Translations under genes and position numbers: made by a program
Assembly: GCF_014595975.1 (NCBI RefSeq)
Contig: NZ_JABWGQ010000051.1
Span: 1 to 64,000 of the forward strand
DNA from: Sphingopyxis sp. LK2115
Lineage (GTDB): Bacteria > Pseudomonadota > Alphaproteobacteria > Sphingomonadales > Sphingomonadaceae
Direction of reading: 5' to 3'
DNA: 64,000 nt
The notes under the pieces: generated by a model
The model's database searches: none
What the model was told of the DNA's origin: nothing
What the model saw: the letters and a program-made list of their open reading frames with translations, nothing else
Part shown: piece by piece, positions 58,862 to 63,781 of the stretch
Layout of the letters: every line of letters begins with the position of its first letter
How positions within the stretch are numbered: the first letter of the stretch is position 1

Positions 58862-59881
58862 TCATTGATTCAGCCCATGCTTTTTCAGCGCATGGCGAAT
58901 CTGGTCATAGCTGAGGCCGAGCGCCTCGGCCGCGACCTTCTGGTTATAGCGGCATCGCGCCATCGTGTCGGCCAGGATCGTCTTTTCATAGCTGTCGACC
59001 GCGGCGCGCAGGTCGCTGACCTGGCCCGGCGGCGGCGCGGCGGCGGACGCGGCGGCGGGAGCGGCGGCGCTGGCCGGTTCGGCCTTCGTCGACCGTGACG
59101 CGGGTTGCCAGGGGCTCGCAAAAGGATCAAAGCTCAGCGCGTCGATCGGTTTCGTCGGGTCGCCCCAGCGATAGACGGCGCGCTCGATGACATTCCTGAG
59201 TTCGCGGACATTGCCCGGCCAGTCATATCCTTCCATCGCCGCGAGCGCGCGCGGGCCGAATCCCGGCCATTCGTCCCAGCCGACGACCGCCGCCATGCGC
59301 TGCCCGAAATAGGTCGCGAGCACTTCGATATCGCCCTCGCGCGCGCGCAGCGGGGGCAGGGTGATGACCTCGAACGATAACCGGTCGAGCAGGTCGGCGC
59401 GGAACCGGTTGTCTTCGACCAGCGCGGGAAGATGTTCGTTGGTCGCCGCGACGATGCGCACGTCGACGCGGATGGGGCGCGACGATCCGACGCGCGTGAC
59501 CTCGCCATATTCGACTGCGCGCAGCAGGCGCTCCTGTGCCCCCATCGACATCGTTGCCAGCTCGTCCAGAAAGAGCGTGCCGCCGTCGGCTTCCTCGAAC
59601 CGCCCAGCGCGGCTGCGCGTCGCGCCGGTGAAGGCGCCCGCTTCATGTCCGAACAGCTCGCTCTCGATCAGCGTTTCGGGCATCGCGGCGCAGTTCATGA
59701 TGACATAGGGGCGATCCCAGCGCGTCGACAGGCGGTGCAGCCGCTCGGCGATCAGTTCCTTGCCCGTCCCGCGCTCGCCGATCACCAGCACCGGGCGGTC
59801 GAGCAGCGCCGCCTGGCTCGCGCGATCGACCGCGTCCTGAAAGGCTGCCGACTGGCCGATGAACTGCGTTTCGCGCTCCAT
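58862..59881 (-). CDS. pspF: sigma-54-dependent activator PspF
   Basis: The 339-residue protein is a bare AAA+ activator without a receiver domain, as in PspF. Walker A GERGTGKE is at 35-42, the sigma-54-contact loop GAFTGA at 82-87, Walker B GTLFLDEL at 101-108, and a Fis-type helix-turn-helix closes the C-terminus (AAEALGLSYDQIRHALKKHG). An Ala/Pro linker before the HTH is long. ATG 59881 is used; a TTG at 59887 is possible. It is divergent from the psp genes, and PspA would hold it inactive until envelope stress. Confidence 0.9.
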   Translation of the reverse strand: MERETQFIGQSAAFQDAVDRASQAALLDRPVLVIGERGTGKELIAERLHRLSTRWDRPYVIMNCAAMPETLIESELFGHEAGAFTGATRSRAGRFEEADGGTLFLDELATMSMGAQERLLRAVEYGEVTRVGSSRPIRVDVRIVAATNEHLPALVEDNRFRADLLDRLSFEVITLPPLRAREGDIEVLATYFGQRMAAVVGWDEWPGFGPRALAAMEGYDWPGNVRELRNVIERAVYRWGDPTKPIDALSFDPFASPWQPASRSTKAEPASAAAPAAASAAAPPPGQVSDLRAAVDSYEKTILADTMARCRYNQKVAAEALGLSYDQIRHALKKHGLNQ

Positions 59882-59882
59882 T

Positions 59883-59917
59883 CCCAATCATTGGCAAATT
59901 TTCCCGCTGATTGGCAA
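59883..59917 (+). promoter_or_regulatory. candidate PspF upstream activating sites
   Basis: Two copies of ATTGGCAA start at 59890 and 59910, exactly 20 bases apart, and the first is the right half of the palindrome CCAATCATTGG (59884-59894). They lie about 65-100 bases before the sigma-54 promoter, where PspF binds in other bacteria, and also at the start of pspF, allowing autoregulation. Confidence 0.55.
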
Positions 59918-59980: not shown

Positions 59981-59997
59981 TTGGCACGCCTCCTGCA
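59981..59997 (+). promoter_or_regulatory. sigma-54 promoter of the psp operon
   Basis: TTGGCACG is followed, with exact -24/-12 spacing (GG at 59983-59984, GC at 59995-59996), by CTGCATTA. The match to the TGGCAC-N5-TTGCA consensus is good. It points toward the small leader gene and pspA, and the activator PspF is encoded divergently just upstream. Confidence 0.82.
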
Positions 59998-60056
59998 TTA
60001 ATTTCGGTGAACCGGCGCACAAGGCTCCGGTGCAGCAAAACAGGAAGGTTGATACG

Positions 60057-60221
60057 ATGAAAACGAAGATTGCCCAGGCCGCTACTTTCGCGTTCAGCGC
60101 GGTGGGTGCACTGGCCATCCTCGTCGGTGCGGTCGACTATCCTGCCACCGCCGCCGCCAGCGTCCCCGTCGTCGGCCTGGTGGGTGCTGCTTCGACCCCG
60201 GCGGTCGGCCCCATGGCCTGA
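60057..60221 (+). CDS. small psp leader protein
   Basis: This 54-residue protein starts with MKTKIAQAATFAFSAVGALA, a signal-like hydrophobic stretch, then ILVGAVDYPATAAA and a short Val/Pro/Ala tail. A possible cleavage site lies after the Ala run. The ATG at 60057 follows AGGAAGG. No family was recognised. It is the first gene after the sigma-54 promoter and is separated from pspA by a strong terminator, so it would be the main product of short transcripts and could report or tune envelope stress. Confidence 0.6.
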   Translation: MKTKIAQAATFAFSAVGALAILVGAVDYPATAAASVPVVGLVGAASTPAVGPMA

Positions 60222-60237
60222 CCGGCACTGGTGCCGG
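60222..60237 (+). promoter_or_regulatory. alternative hairpin competing with the psp terminator
   Basis: CCGGCAC (60222-60228) and GTGCCGG (60231-60237) form a seven-base hairpin with a two-base loop, starting right after the leader stop codon. Its right arm overlaps the left arm of the terminator at 60228-60240, so the two structures exclude each other. Confidence 0.5.
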
Positions 60238-60280
60238 GGCACTCTCCCCCCTTGCCCCGCCCCGGCACCAGCATTTTTTT
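60228..60280 (+). terminator. intrinsic terminator between the leader gene and pspA
   Basis: Thirteen-base perfect arms (60228-60240 CTGGTGCCGGGGC, 60259-60271 GCCCCGGCACCAG) enclose an 18-base pyrimidine-rich loop and are followed by CA and seven T residues (60274-60280). This is the strongest terminator in the window. It lies 43 bases before pspA, so pspA transcription needs readthrough or its own promoter. Confidence 0.85.
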
Positions 60281-60322: not shown

Positions 60323-60985
60323 ATGGGTATTTTTTCACGAACCCGCGACATCATCGCCGCCAACGTCACCGACCTGCTCGACCGGGCCGAAGACCCCGAA
60401 AAGATGATCCGCCAGATCATCTTCGAAATGAACGAAACGCTTGTCGAAGTCCGCGCCTCCGCCGCCCGCACCATCGCGGACCAGAAGGAGATGCGCCGCC
60501 ACATCGCCAAGCTCGAAAGCCTGCAGGACAGCTGGAAGGAAAAGGCTGAACTTGCGCTGTCGAAGGACCGCGAAGACCTCGCCACCGCCGCGCTTGTCGA
60601 AAAGCAGAAGGCCGCAGACATGGCCGAACGCCTGAAAGCCGAGATCGCCGTCCTTGACGACGCGCTGACCGGCTATGAGGCCGACATCGCCAAGCTGCAG
60701 AAAAAGCTCTCCGAAGCGCGCGCGCGCCAGTCGAGCATCGTCAACCGCCTCGAAAGCGCCGAAAACCGCTATCGCCTTCGCGAAATGACCAACGGCGACC
60801 GGGTCGAGGATGCTTTCTCGCGCTTTGAAATCCTCGAACGCCGCGTCGACGAAGCCGAAGGGCGGGCCGACGCGCTGGGTCTCGGCTACAAAAAGTCGCT
60901 CGACGAAGAGATTGCCGAACTTCAGGCCGCCGACAAGGTCGCCGCCGAACTCGCCGCGCTGAAGGCTGCGCAGGGCAAGAAATAA
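60323..60985 (+). CDS. pspA: phage shock protein A
   Basis: The 220-residue PspA/IM30-family coiled-coil protein binds stressed membranes and inhibits PspF. MGIFSRTRDIIAANVTDLLD at the start is the amphipathic helix, followed by EDPEKMIRQIIFEM and long heptad regions with GDRVEDAFSRFE. Length is normal (E. coli 222). The ATG at 60323 has AGGAG. The gene lies 12 bases before pspB. Confidence 0.95.
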   Translation: MGIFSRTRDIIAANVTDLLDRAEDPEKMIRQIIFEMNETLVEVRASAARTIADQKEMRRHIAKLESLQDSWKEKAELALSKDREDLATAALVEKQKAADMAERLKAEIAVLDDALTGYEADIAKLQKKLSEARARQSSIVNRLESAENRYRLREMTNGDRVEDAFSRFEILERRVDEAEGRADALGLGYKKSLDEEIAELQAADKVAAELAALKAAQGKK

Positions 60986-60997
60986 GGAGCCGGACCG

Positions 60998-61273
60998 ATG
61001 GAAGAAGTCATCATCGTCCCGATCGTCATCGGAACGCTCTTCCTCGGTCTGCCCTGGCTGATCCTCCACTATATCACCAAGTGGAAACAGGCCAAGACGC
61101 TTACCGGAGAAGACGAACAGCTGCTCGACGAACTTTACGATACGGCCAGACGGCTCGAGAATCGTCTACATACCGTCGAACGCATCATCAGCGCCGACCA
61201 TCCCGACTTCCGCCCCGCGGTTCGCAGCGATGAAGAGCTGGCGCAGCTCGAAAACATAAACCGGAGGAACTGA
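60998..61273 (+). CDS. pspB: phage shock protein B
   Basis: The 91-residue protein has one N-terminal membrane helix (IVPIVIGTLFLGLPWLILHY) and a charged cytoplasmic coil with LYDTARRLENRLHTVERIIS, the conserved PspB block, ending DHPDFRP. It senses stress together with PspC and releases PspF from PspA. It has a clear ribosome site, and pspC starts two bases after its stop. The motif RLENRLHTVERI is the model for the repeated downstream genes. Confidence 0.93.
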   Translation: MEEVIIVPIVIGTLFLGLPWLILHYITKWKQAKTLTGEDEQLLDELYDTARRLENRLHTVERIISADHPDFRPAVRSDEELAQLENINRRN

Positions 61274-61274
61274 G

Positions 61275-61655
61275 ATGTCTGCCAGCCGCACCAAATTCTA
61301 TCTCGACAAGCAGAACGCCAAATGGAGCGGCGTATGCGCGGGGATCGCGGACTATAGCGGGATCGACGTGCTCTGGGTCCGCGTCGGAGCGGTGCTGCTC
61401 ACCTTGATGGGCGGTTTTCCCTGGACGCTGATCGCTTACTGGATGGTCGCCTGGATGGGCACGCCCAAACCCTTCGCGCTCTATGGCTCGCAGGAAGAAG
61501 CCAAGTTCTGGCAGGGGGTGCGCAGCAATCCCGCGGCGTCCACTCGCGACATCAAGTCGCGCTTTCGCGACATCGACCGTCGGCTCGCCGACATCGAACT
61601 TTACTACACCAGCCATAATCGCCGCCTCGCCGACGAGATTGACGCCCTTCGTTAA
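61275..61655 (+). CDS. pspC: phage shock protein C
   Basis: The 126-residue protein has the PspC domain (KFYLDKQNAKWSGVCAGIAD and DVLWVRVGAVLLTLMGG, residues 7-50), a second hydrophobic stretch that anchors it, and a cytoplasmic coil with RFRDIDRRLADIELYY. Its C-terminus LADEIDALR is shared, in variant form, with most of the small proteins encoded downstream. It lies directly after pspB and should form the membrane sensor with it. Confidence 0.92.
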   Translation: MSASRTKFYLDKQNAKWSGVCAGIADYSGIDVLWVRVGAVLLTLMGGFPWTLIAYWMVAWMGTPKPFALYGSQEEAKFWQGVRSNPAASTRDIKSRFRDIDRRLADIELYYTSHNRRLADEIDALR

Positions 61656-61702: not shown

Positions 61703-62002
61703 ATGAACATCGGTGGTACCGGTTTCGTCCTCGCCATTATCGCATTATCGATCGGCGGCTGGATGTTCACCACCTGGATCCGCGCCAAGCACGGCTATCC
61801 GGTCGAAAATGAATGGGGCGGCACGGTTCATCGAACCGACGCCGACGCTGATCGAAAAATCAGGCTCTTGACCGACGACAATGCCAAGCTTGCCAGTCAG
61901 GTCAGCCGACTGGAGGAACGGATCGCGGTGCTCGAACGGATCGCGACCGAAGATGGCGGCAAAGCGGCGCAGCTTGCCGACCAGATCGACAGCCTGCGCT
62001 GA
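61703..62002 (+). CDS. PspB-like membrane coiled-coil protein 1
   Basis: This 99-residue protein has one N-terminal membrane helix (FVLAIIALSIGGWMFTTWI), the juxtamembrane motif KHGYPVENEWG, and a coiled coil with SRLEERIAVLERIATED ending QLADQIDSLR. The layout and the ERIAVLERI block match PspB, and the last residues resemble the PspC end. It follows pspC by 47 bases. The functional role is unknown; a partner or regulator of PspA/PspB/PspC at the inner membrane is inferred. Confidence 0.8.
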   Translation: MNIGGTGFVLAIIALSIGGWMFTTWIRAKHGYPVENEWGGTVHRTDADADRKIRLLTDDNAKLASQVSRLEERIAVLERIATEDGGKAAQLADQIDSLR

Positions 62003-62013
62003 GGGGATAACAG

Positions 62014-62331
62014 ATGAATCTGGACATTGTGAACGCCTTTGCTCCCGTCGCCGCGATCGTCGGCCTGGCCGGGGTGGCGGGCTGGGTCTACACCACCTGG
62101 CTGCGCGTCAAGAATGGCTATCCGCTTGAAAACAGCTGGGGCAAGGCCGTCTATCCGCGCACCAGCGACGAAGCGATGGAGCGCATCAAGCTCATCAGCC
62201 AGGAAAATGCCCAGCTGCGCGCCGAACTCGGTTCGGTGAAGGATCGCCTCGCGGTCGTCGAGCGCATCGTCACCGACGAAAGTCACCGCGTCGCGGCCGA
62301 GATCGAGGCGCTGCGGCGCCCGGCGAACTGA
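62014..62331 (+). CDS. PspB-like membrane coiled-coil protein 2
   Basis: The 105-residue protein repeats the design: N-terminal membrane helix (FAPVAAIVGLAGVAGWVYTT), KNGYPLENSWGKA (close to the motif of protein 1), then a coil with GSVKDRLAVVERIVTDE and an end AAEIEALRRPAN. The gap to protein 1 is 11 bases with its own ribosome site. Similarity to protein 1 is higher than to PspB, suggesting a local duplication. Confidence 0.8.
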   Translation: MNLDIVNAFAPVAAIVGLAGVAGWVYTTWLRVKNGYPLENSWGKAVYPRTSDEAMERIKLISQENAQLRAELGSVKDRLAVVERIVTDESHRVAAEIEALRRPAN

Positions 62332-62343
62332 GGAGACAGGCAG

Positions 62344-62607
62344 ATGGAAACGATCCTCATCCTGTTCATTGTCGTCGGGCTGCCGGTCACGCTCGGCATC
62401 GGCTACGCCGCCTATGAACGCCACCTCAAGTTCAAGGAACGCGCGTTTGAGGCGATGAGCAGCGAAACCGCGGAAAAGGCGGCGCAATATGCCGCGCACA
62501 CGGAACGGCTCGAAGCGCGCGTGCGCGTGCTCGAACGGATCGTGACCGACAAGGGCGTCGACGTCGCCGACGAGATCGAAAAGCTGCGCGACGCCCCGCT
62601 CAACTGA
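62344..62607 (+). CDS. PspB-like membrane coiled-coil protein 3
   Basis: The 87-residue protein has the membrane helix ILILFIVVGLPVTLGIGYAA, whose VVGLPVTLGIG recalls the PspB helix, and a coil with RLEARVRVLERIVTDKG and the terminal VADEIEKLRDAPLN. It lacks the KxGYP juxtamembrane motif. It starts 12 bases after protein 2. As with its neighbours, a role beside PspB is inferred from repetition and position. Confidence 0.8.
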   Translation: METILILFIVVGLPVTLGIGYAAYERHLKFKERAFEAMSSETAEKAAQYAAHTERLEARVRVLERIVTDKGVDVADEIEKLRDAPLN

Positions 62608-62640
62608 TAACAATAAGCGAGACTGGAAAGGAACCTCCCC

Positions 62641-62898
62641 ATGGGCCCGTTTGAAATGGTCGTCGGCATCGTCCTCATCGTGACGATCGGCAGCATCATC
62701 CGCGCCAAGCACGGCATCCGCCGCGACCGCCACGGCAACGACTATGTCGCCAATGACGCCGAAACCAAGGCGTTGCAGGCCGAGATACGCGCCCTCAAGG
62801 AGCGCATCCAGGTGCTCGAACGCATCGCCACCGACAATAATCGCGCCGTCGCGCTCGACGAGGAAATCGAAAAGCTGCGCGACAGCAGCAAGATCTGA
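62641..62898 (+). CDS. PspB-like membrane coiled-coil protein 4
   Basis: The 85-residue protein has the helix FEMVVGIVLIVTIGSIIRAK, a charged KHGIRRDRHGNDY segment that recalls the KHGYP motif, and a coil RALKERIQVLERIATDN ending LDEEIEKLRDSSKI. It lies 33 bases after protein 3 with an AAGGAAC ribosome site. The C-terminal DEEIEKLRDS is nearly the same as in protein 3. Confidence 0.8.
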   Translation: MGPFEMVVGIVLIVTIGSIIRAKHGIRRDRHGNDYVANDAETKALQAEIRALKERIQVLERIATDNNRAVALDEEIEKLRDSSKI

Positions 62899-62921
62899 AC
62901 GCCGGTAAAGGAGCAACGCTC

Positions 62922-63167
62922 ATGGCTTTCATCACTCCCGACCTCACCACCGCGGCCATCGCCCTCGCCGGGCTTACCATCGTCAGCCTGGTCGCGCTGC
63001 GCGGCTGGCGCGACTGGATCCAGCTGAAGCGCGAGGAACTCGCCGCGGGCCACGCCCCGCTGGCGCACGATCCCACCGTGCCGCACGCCGGATCGCGGAT
63101 CGAAATCGCCGACCTCAAGGAACGGCTGCGCAAGCTGGAAGCGATCGCGGCGGGGGTGGATCTGTAA
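62922..63167 (+). CDS. PspB-like membrane coiled-coil protein 5
   Basis: This 81-residue member is the most divergent: membrane helix TAAIALAGLTIVSLVALRGW, a longer Pro/His-rich linker, then the coil IADLKERLRKLEAIAAGVDL. It keeps the RL.KLE.I core but has lost the T(D/E) and EIxxLR parts. It ends the series, 203 bases before sufE. It has AAAGGAG before its ATG. Confidence 0.72.
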   Translation: MAFITPDLTTAAIALAGLTIVSLVALRGWRDWIQLKREELAAGHAPLAHDPTVPHAGSRIEIADLKERLRKLEAIAAGVDL

Positions 63168-63370: not shown

Positions 63371-63781
63371 ATGCGCAGCCTCTCTGACATTTTCGACGAA
63401 TATGATTTCCTTGATGGCGACGATCGCTATCGCCTGCTGATCGAGCTTGGCCGCGAGCTGGAACCGATGCCCGACGCGCTCAAGACCGACGCGACGCTGG
63501 TGCGCGGATGCAGCGCGAGCGTCTGGGTTTATCCGGTGCCGCAGGACGATGGCCGTCTGCATTTCCTTGCCGACAGCAATGCCGCGATCACCAAGGGCAT
63601 CGTCGCGCTTGTCCTCGCCGCGGTGCAGGACCGGCCCGCCAGCGAGGTCGCCGGAATGGACATCGCCGCCGCGCTCGCGCCCTTCGACCTCCAGCGCCAG
63701 CTTTCGTCGAACCGCACGCAGGGCGTGCCCAACATGATCGCGCTCGTCCAGGACACCGCCCGCCGCCTTGCCGCGGGCTGA
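63371..63781 (+). CDS. sufE: SufE-family sulfur acceptor protein
   Basis: The 136-residue protein matches SufE: EYDFLDGDDRYRLLIELGRE at the start and LVRGCSASVWVYP, where Cys47 accepts persulfide from a cysteine desulfurase such as SufS for Fe-S cluster assembly. The length fits. No other suf gene lies nearby. The ATG at 63371 opens at the conserved first helix. It converges on the partial peptidase gene. Confidence 0.9.
   Translation: MRSLSDIFDEYDFLDGDDRYRLLIELGRELEPMPDALKTDATLVRGCSASVWVYPVPQDDGRLHFLADSNAAITKGIVALVLAAVQDRPASEVAGMDIAAALAPFDLQRQLSSNRTQGVPNMIALVQDTARRLAAG

Follow-up and report, generated by a model that had tools for sequence, protein, structure and literature searches.

In E. 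coli, residues 69-119 of PspC, a segment with a leucine zipper, are needed for contact with PspA and, together with PspB, for induction (PMC3068692). That 2010 paper draws the PspC tail as putatively periplasmic and invokes two topologies (PMC3068692). It is still a matter of debate how PspB and PspC transfer PspA, as inhibitor, to the membrane, and two papers disagree about the location of the PspC tail. Ravi et al. 2024 report duplicates of PspB in the operon, PspC fused to a divergent PspB, and PspB-like domains also at the end of PspC (PMC11237479). Their observation probably concerns the same phenomenon as the array described here, or at any rate its most PspB-like copies; in the accessible part of the article it occupies one clause with one example accession, AOL22920.1, and array size, groups, kinship with the PspC tail and a stand-alone family are not treated there (PMC11237479). 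PspB arrays likewise go unmentioned in the accessible part of a 2022 phyletic survey (PMC9239133). The literature that we searched, which included few subscription journals, yielded nothing on the extent of the array, its kinship with the PspC tail, the stand-alone family or the case of replacement, and no study of the array genes was among the matches listed for phage-shock work in Sphingomonas, Novosphingobium, Sphingobium, Erythrobacter or Sphingopyxis. The example accession AOL22920.1 is, we assume, an Erythrobacter protein.

The window is a stretch of 64,000 nucleotides from Sphingopyxis sp. LK2115, in which pspABC is followed on the + strand by five consecutive small genes, g1 to g5, at 61703..63167 (Table 1). 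The array proteins resemble PspB (PF06667, TIGR02976) in size, in their N-terminal membrane helix and basic flank, in the core RLExRVxVLERI and in operon position, but they score below both curated cut-offs, and their core leads into [IVA]TD...L..EI..LR, a place at which PspB has a sequence like LDADxPDWR. With the PspC tail (TIGR02978, about 73-121) they share a coil and, beyond it, the pattern T[SD]....L..EI..L, which stays in register up to the end of the chain, whereas they lack the PspC domain and have a single membrane helix. E. coli too has small additional Psp proteins, PspD and PspG, which belong to the PspF regulon there; PspD reaches at most 2.9% in HHalign comparison with any array group. 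The initial annotation of this DNA gave the impression that such a series was undescribed, which is partly right, PspB duplicates in the operon having been reported already (Ravi et al. 2024; PMC11237479).

Table 1. Features of the psp locus, numbered from the first position of the window.
Feature	Position	Strand	Remarks
pspF (presumed), sigma54 enhancer-binding activator	58862..59887	-	divergent; ORF; best match among 78 ORFs of relatives' loci; presumably pspF by gene order
sigma54-type -24/-12 element TGGCACGCCTCCTGCA	59982..59997	+	pattern TGGCAC-N6-TGCW
leader small ORF	60057..60221	+	54 aa with a single hydrophobic stretch; 3' of the sigma54 element and 5' of pspA; longer version 60030-60221
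terminator-like hairpin	60228..60280	+	perfect stem of 13 bp followed by CA and T7; 3' of the leader ORF and 5' of pspA
pspA	60323..60985	+	TIGR02977 271.5 bits, cut-off 242.95
pspB	60998..61273	+	TIGR02976 91.3 bits, cut-off 51.7
pspC with C-terminal coil tail RLADIELYYTSHNRRLADEIDALR	61275..61655	+	TIGR02978 117.7 bits, cut-off 104
g1, membrane helix and coil	61703..62002	+	99 aa; juxtamembrane AKHGYPVENEWG; tail ADQIDSLR
g2, membrane helix and coil	62014..62331	+	105 aa; juxtamembrane VKNGYPLENSWG; tail AAEIEALR
g3, membrane helix and coil	62344..62607	+	87 aa; tail ADEIEKLR
g4, membrane helix and coil	62641..62898	+	85 aa; tail DEEIEKLR
g5, membrane helix and short coil SRIEIADLKERLRKLEAIAAGVDL	62922..63167	+	81 aa; without PspC-like tail
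sufE-like gene (presumed)	63371..63781	+	3' of the array; ORF; same neighbour in most Sphingomonadaceae loci

The pspB gene at 60998..61273 is the sole PF06667 hit of the genome; its product has 91 residues as against 74 in E. coli PspB, the 17 extra residues being C-terminal. From pspC to g1 there are 47 bases, and the gaps from g1 through g5 measure 11, 12, 33 and 23 bases. Across the family loci, 191 gaps between -59 and 119 bases were counted (12 of 203 were dropped as outside this range or mis-ordered, and one locus, L127, was left out because it has no PspC on the strand), of which 57 are overlaps of -1 or -4, 130 measure 0-60 bases, 2 exceed 60 bases and 2 are other overlaps; gene order is miscalled in L063, L069 and L096, and the gene calls include spurious ORFs. 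The pattern TGGCAC-N6-TGCW has a single exact match in the whole window, ahead of pspA, and a strict sigma54-type element lies 5' of pspA in 42 of 79 loci. A simple scan detected no terminator-like site on the + strand from pspA to g5, although it covered loops of 3-8 bases only and likewise missed the 60228-60280 hairpin. Gaps, overlaps and the sigma54-type element together agree with the view, already proposed from the gaps of 11-33 bases and now extended by short gaps and overlaps throughout the family, that pspABC and g1-g5 form one predicted operon, but the strong terminator-like hairpin ahead of pspA has to be set against this.

The leader between promoter element and pspA has features of its own. 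The hairpin folds at -29.7 kcal/mol (z -4.75), a value equalled by none of 200 shuffles, and looks like an intrinsic terminator placed ahead of a stress operon, so that read-through into the operon might be regulated. Scans with Pfam and NCBIfam gave no match for the leader ORF. A small ORF with a hydrophobic stretch occurs in the leader of a good part of the Sphingomonadaceae loci with a recognised sigma54 element, ending for example in ELA, EIA, ALA or GPMA, and the small leader ORFs of other families are different ones.

Anatomy of the five proteins and kinship with PspB and the PspC tail

Each of g1-g5 has one N-terminal hydrophobic stretch, followed by a basic flank and a helix-prone end, so the initial annotation's picture of five consecutive small genes encoding one membrane helix and a coil each agrees with the + strand ORFs and their hydropathy. 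A mean hydropathy of 1.6 is reached by 197 of 203 homologues from 41 loci, with a Lys/Arg-rich flank C-terminal of the helix; judged by this flanking charge, the coil would lie on the cytoplasmic side of the membrane. AlphaFold2, applied among the five to g2 alone (31 sequences), gave helices at 3-33 and 51-101 with a mean pLDDT of 77 and a pTM of 0.33. The PspB-type plan of an N-terminal membrane helix and then a long helix is thus found by hydropathy and charge, and for g2 also by AlphaFold2. The heptad order of g1, g2 and g4 is better than that of shuffled sequences (reached by 2, 5 and 19 of 1000 shuffles), and that of g3 and g5 is not clearly so (51 and 100 of 1000). The quoted core and tail motifs are present in the translations, as is K.GYP.EN.WG in the two proteins to which it had been ascribed, which are g1 and g2. 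G-Y-P-L and W-G are invariant in the 12 aligned members of the g2 group and two Trp in the 11 aligned members of the g5 group; in general the membrane and juxtamembrane parts vary between groups and are conserved within them, and the coil is common to the groups.

Taken singly, the five sequences match the known models weakly. The best PspB match is that of g4 (TIGR02976, 23.4 bits, E 5e-5, cut-off 51.7), the best of the five with PF06667 is g3 (16.9 bits, cut-off 25.6), and the best PspC match, again g3 (21.4 bits, E 2e-4), is far under the TIGR02978 cut-off of 104; this model is matched by g2 at 73-121 and by g3 at 64-121. None of g1-g5 passes a PspB, PspC, Pfam or NCBIfam cut-off, the Pfam scan found no PspC domain PF04024 in them, and the PspM model NF047839 (cut-off 80 bits) reached 16.1 bits with g5 (E 0.008). 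Other coiled-coil models match single proteins at E-values similar to those of PspB. One array copy of a family relative (G106) does pass PF06667, with 32.8 bits, and g3 as a query in its own genome finds g4 (3e-5), g2 (6e-4) and g1 (3e-3). A scan of viral contigs with g3 found no relative, and no solved structure was found by sequence for the PspB or PspC of the window.

Because single sequences score weakly, we built group profiles from the window and 40 Sphingomonadaceae loci, each member being assigned to the window gene that it matches best. In HHalign comparison the g1, g2, g3 and g4 profiles reach 94, 84, 94 and 90% against PspB and 93, 95, 81 and 91% against PspC, and 98.6-99.9% among themselves. 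The g5 profile has no direct likeness to the PspB (0.8%) or PspC (1.3%) of the family, although E. coli PspB reaches 47% against it; it is linked to the others through g2, g3 and g4 (75, 90 and 91%; g1, 11%). Reversed-profile controls for these comparisons stay at or below 23%, and FtsB from 23 family genomes, likewise a small coil protein of the membrane, scores 7, 5, 35, 7 and 8% against g1-g5 (full range 4.9-35.2%). For g1-g4 the FtsB values are lower than those for PspB and PspC, and for g5 the FtsB value (8.3%) exceeds its own of about 1%.

A merged g1-g4 profile reaches 95.7% with PspB and 88.9% with PspC of lineages outside the family, and 81.1% and 94.4% with the family's own PspB and PspC, compared with 23.9% for FtsB and at most 3.8% for reversed controls. 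It matches E. coli PspB with 24.1 bits and E. coli PspC weakly (7.4 bits, 38.6%), and does not match E. coli PspD (-1.3 bits) or PspA (-6.7 bits). Conversely, when a tail profile made from 30 out-of-family PspC proteins was run on 6410 ORFs, the hits at E<=1, PspC itself set aside, were 132 ORFs, comprising 95 labelled g1-g4, 17 PspB, 14 PspA and 6 unlabelled; the best unlabelled hit, in a locus from another order (L118), has one helix and a PspC tail. With the array profiles on the same 6410 ORFs, the top 40 matches beyond the counted array comprise 37 PspB or PspC proteins and 3 frames containing uncounted array genes.

Since both reversed profiles and FtsB score lower, we rejected a generic coil as the explanation of the likeness for g1-g4, and kinship with PspB and among the genes beyond coil composition, the comparison that the initial annotation had asked for, is upheld for these four. 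The best reading of the profiles is that the g1-g4 coil would be of the same kind as the PspB coil and the PspC tail, g5 belonging with them by descent. The earlier proposal therefore needs adjusting in two respects: kinship with PspB was claimed for all five proteins and holds for g1-g4 (84-94%) but not directly for g5, and PspB is not the only kin, since g1-g4 are equally close to the PspC tail, as the PspC-like tails noticed in four of the proteins had indicated (81-95%).

In a separate comparison, the PspC tail (61536-61652) aligned with PspA at about residues 159-204 (60797-60934), with 53-54% at best; 7 of 9 forward comparisons gave 13% or less, and in 8 of 9 the value was higher than in either reversed control (at most 2.2%). 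The merged array profile does not match PspA (1.6 and 1.9%).

Spread and age in the Sphingomonadaceae

In a first sample, consisting of the window and 40 chosen family genomes that all have a PspB hit, the array counts 3 genes in 3 loci, 4 in 10, 5 in 15, 6 in 10 and 7 in 3; these counts are lower bounds in at least three loci, genes having been missed in L058, L079 and L095. The g2 profile has matches in 187 of 199 family genomes, of which about 134 fall below 1e-35 and are taken as true g2, and the 53 weaker ones may be other array genes or chance. A second sample of 26 genomes (12 without a g2-profile match and 14 with a weak one) contains PspA in 18 and PspB in 17; PspA is present in all 14 weak-match genomes, and 8 of the 12 no-match genomes have neither PspA nor PspB. 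Eleven psp loci of this sample were read, including those of the four no-match genomes with PspA, three of which hold one array gene that the g2 profile missed and the fourth, G299, none. With array genes in the 41 loci and in 10 of these 11, at least one array gene lies 3' of pspC in 51 of the 52 family psp loci read (range 1-7).

The initial annotation had spoken of local duplication. Duplication stands, but we rejected a local or recent one, because a tree of array genes from 41 loci places PspB and each of the groups in clades that are mostly distinct. Its largest clades of at least 90% purity hold 36 of 40 PspB, 33 of 33 g1, 37 of 40 g2, 56 of 56 g3, 38 of 40 g4 and 34 of 34 g5, in a tree of short sequences with a support of 0.61 for g3 and with clades that are partly circular, the groups being defined by the window's own genes. 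Together with the presence in 51 of 52 loci, the tree indicates that the array derives from an old, family-wide duplication. In 34 Sphingopyxis loci g1-g5 are kept in 34, 34, 30, 33 and 34. Median dN/dS is 0.17-0.27 for g1-g5 and 0.06-0.07 for pspABC (34 loci, partly redundant because some genomes occur twice; pairs with dS 0.2-1.5 only), values that indicate purifying selection on the array groups.

Two genomes mark the limits of this pattern. G070 has pspA, a PspC of 88 aa without coil tail, a g3-type gene and a g4-type gene in this order, with 3 and 8 bases between pspA, pspC and the g3-type gene, which leave no space for pspB or a PspC tail; no PspB was found by PF06667 in this genome (40 contigs, 100% complete by estimate). 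G299, by contrast, has PspB, a PspC with its tail and no array gene. The array genes are thus dispensable, as G299 has pspABC without them and the E. coli operon has no such genes. The tail is missing from 6 of 86 PspC-labelled ORFs; array-type genes are present in four of these loci and absent from two, which shows that a lost tail and an array do not strictly go together.

Possible roles of the additional coils

We favour the reading that the array coils are extra membrane sites for docking or partner exchange of PspA, made with the operon, and would give it an even chance of being correct. Under it, g1-g4, and g5 by descent, would be single-pass inner-membrane proteins, produced from the PspF/sigma54 operon along with PspABC, with a PspB/PspC-type coil on the cytoplasmic side, which in the PspC of enterobacteria is the segment in contact with PspA; their coils, most likely acting as mixed coils, would hold PspA at the membrane under stress, rival PspC and PspB as its partners, or do both. 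The persistence of two array genes in G070, where PspB and the PspC tail are missing, speaks for such docking, and the weak match of E. coli PspC to the merged profile (38.6%), the missing tail of g5 and the stand-alone relatives without a convincing sigma54 site speak against it. As g1-g5 evolve faster than pspABC, a looser role also fits.

The group-specific membrane and juxtamembrane parts, conserved within groups next to a shared coil, would also be expected if each such segment read a different stress and set the release of PspA from PspF, and a gene number varying from 0 to 7 agrees with this; the same pattern would, however, arise from different lipid or protein partners without any sensing, and we consider such a diversification of sensors unlikely. 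We think it rather more doubtful that the coils are an induced brake or buffer, titrating PspC or PspB (or PspA) after induction and ending the response with no docking or repair role of their own. Their promoter-distal place in the operon suits a brake, and PspB-like cores could pair with PspC, but G070 retains two of the genes with no PspB or PspC tail to titrate, which leaves PspA as a possible target. A last possibility, that small membrane coils of a generic kind happen to lie in the operon and serve something other than Psp, would accord with the weak single-sequence scores, the similar E-values of other coiled-coil models and the 35% that g3 reaches against FtsB. We hold this to be most improbable given that PspB and PspC make up 37 of the 40 best array-profile matches outside the counted array, that the place 3' of pspC is held through the family and that the g2 profile, which can miss single array genes, has no match in 8 genomes without PspA.

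A broader variant of the docking reading, which we regard as very unlikely, is that a single superfamily of membrane-anchored tails unites the coil of PspB, the tail of PspC, the array proteins and their stand-alone relatives, and that its members imitate a PspA helix (about 159-204) and nucleate, cap or hold PspA polymers at the membrane; if so, the length of the array would tune the number of PspA docking points of the cell. With up to seven separable membrane-anchored coils, and in one case neither PspB nor a PspC tail, these bacteria supply ready-made material for finding out which segment docks PspA and which one sets the signal.

Relatives outside the family

No array gene was counted in 20 loci from five other families of the order, one of which (L109) has a second PspB. 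In a further family of the order, represented by 5 loci, one array-type gene occurs in 3 and a second tail-less PspC in 4. The latter loci (L133, L135, L136 and L137) have this second PspC, of 73-84 aa, after pspC, followed in 3 of the 4 by one membrane-coil gene, an arrangement that looks as if PspC had been split in two. From other orders 15 loci were taken and 14 scored, and one of them, L118, stands out: at L118:3926-4414, on the pspB strand, pspABC is followed by a single-helix protein whose tail is of the PspC type and by a second PspB. The distribution of PspB in the class is patchy; 18 of 143 genomes have it, and three of these are Sphingomonadaceae.

At E<=0.001 a mixed profile, A5, finds matches in 14 of 241 genomes of the class (4 of Sphingomonadaceae) and in 47 of 299 genomes of the phylum (16 of Sphingomonadaceae), some of these matches being PspB itself or weak. 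In 16 regions around strong A5 hits away from psp we found 18 stand-alone proteins, of 64-135 aa as longest frames, 16 of which have [ILVA]TD after the coil and the chain end shortly beyond. For the seven that were scanned the best NCBIfam model was always PspB or PspC, under its cut-off, and no Pfam family passed its own cut-off. By these matches, stand-alone relatives occur in other Proteobacteria, distant from pspA. PspA is present in all 25 genomes tested, a count of little weight without a base rate for the phylum. In a sigma54 scan, 5 of 19 upstream stretches reach 12 of 14 (the background rate is 0.051, from mostly coding DNA), and among these 19 stretches we saw no common position of the matches and no convincing site. 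One stand-alone protein is from Thalassotalea, with 117 homologues listed, which where named belong to Thalassotalea, Thalassomonas, Colwellia and Pseudoalteromonas. Such small proteins are now annotated as hypothetical protein, Phage shock protein B, phage shock protein C, FtsL, PilA or Nitrite reductase, and one shared name might be possible for them.
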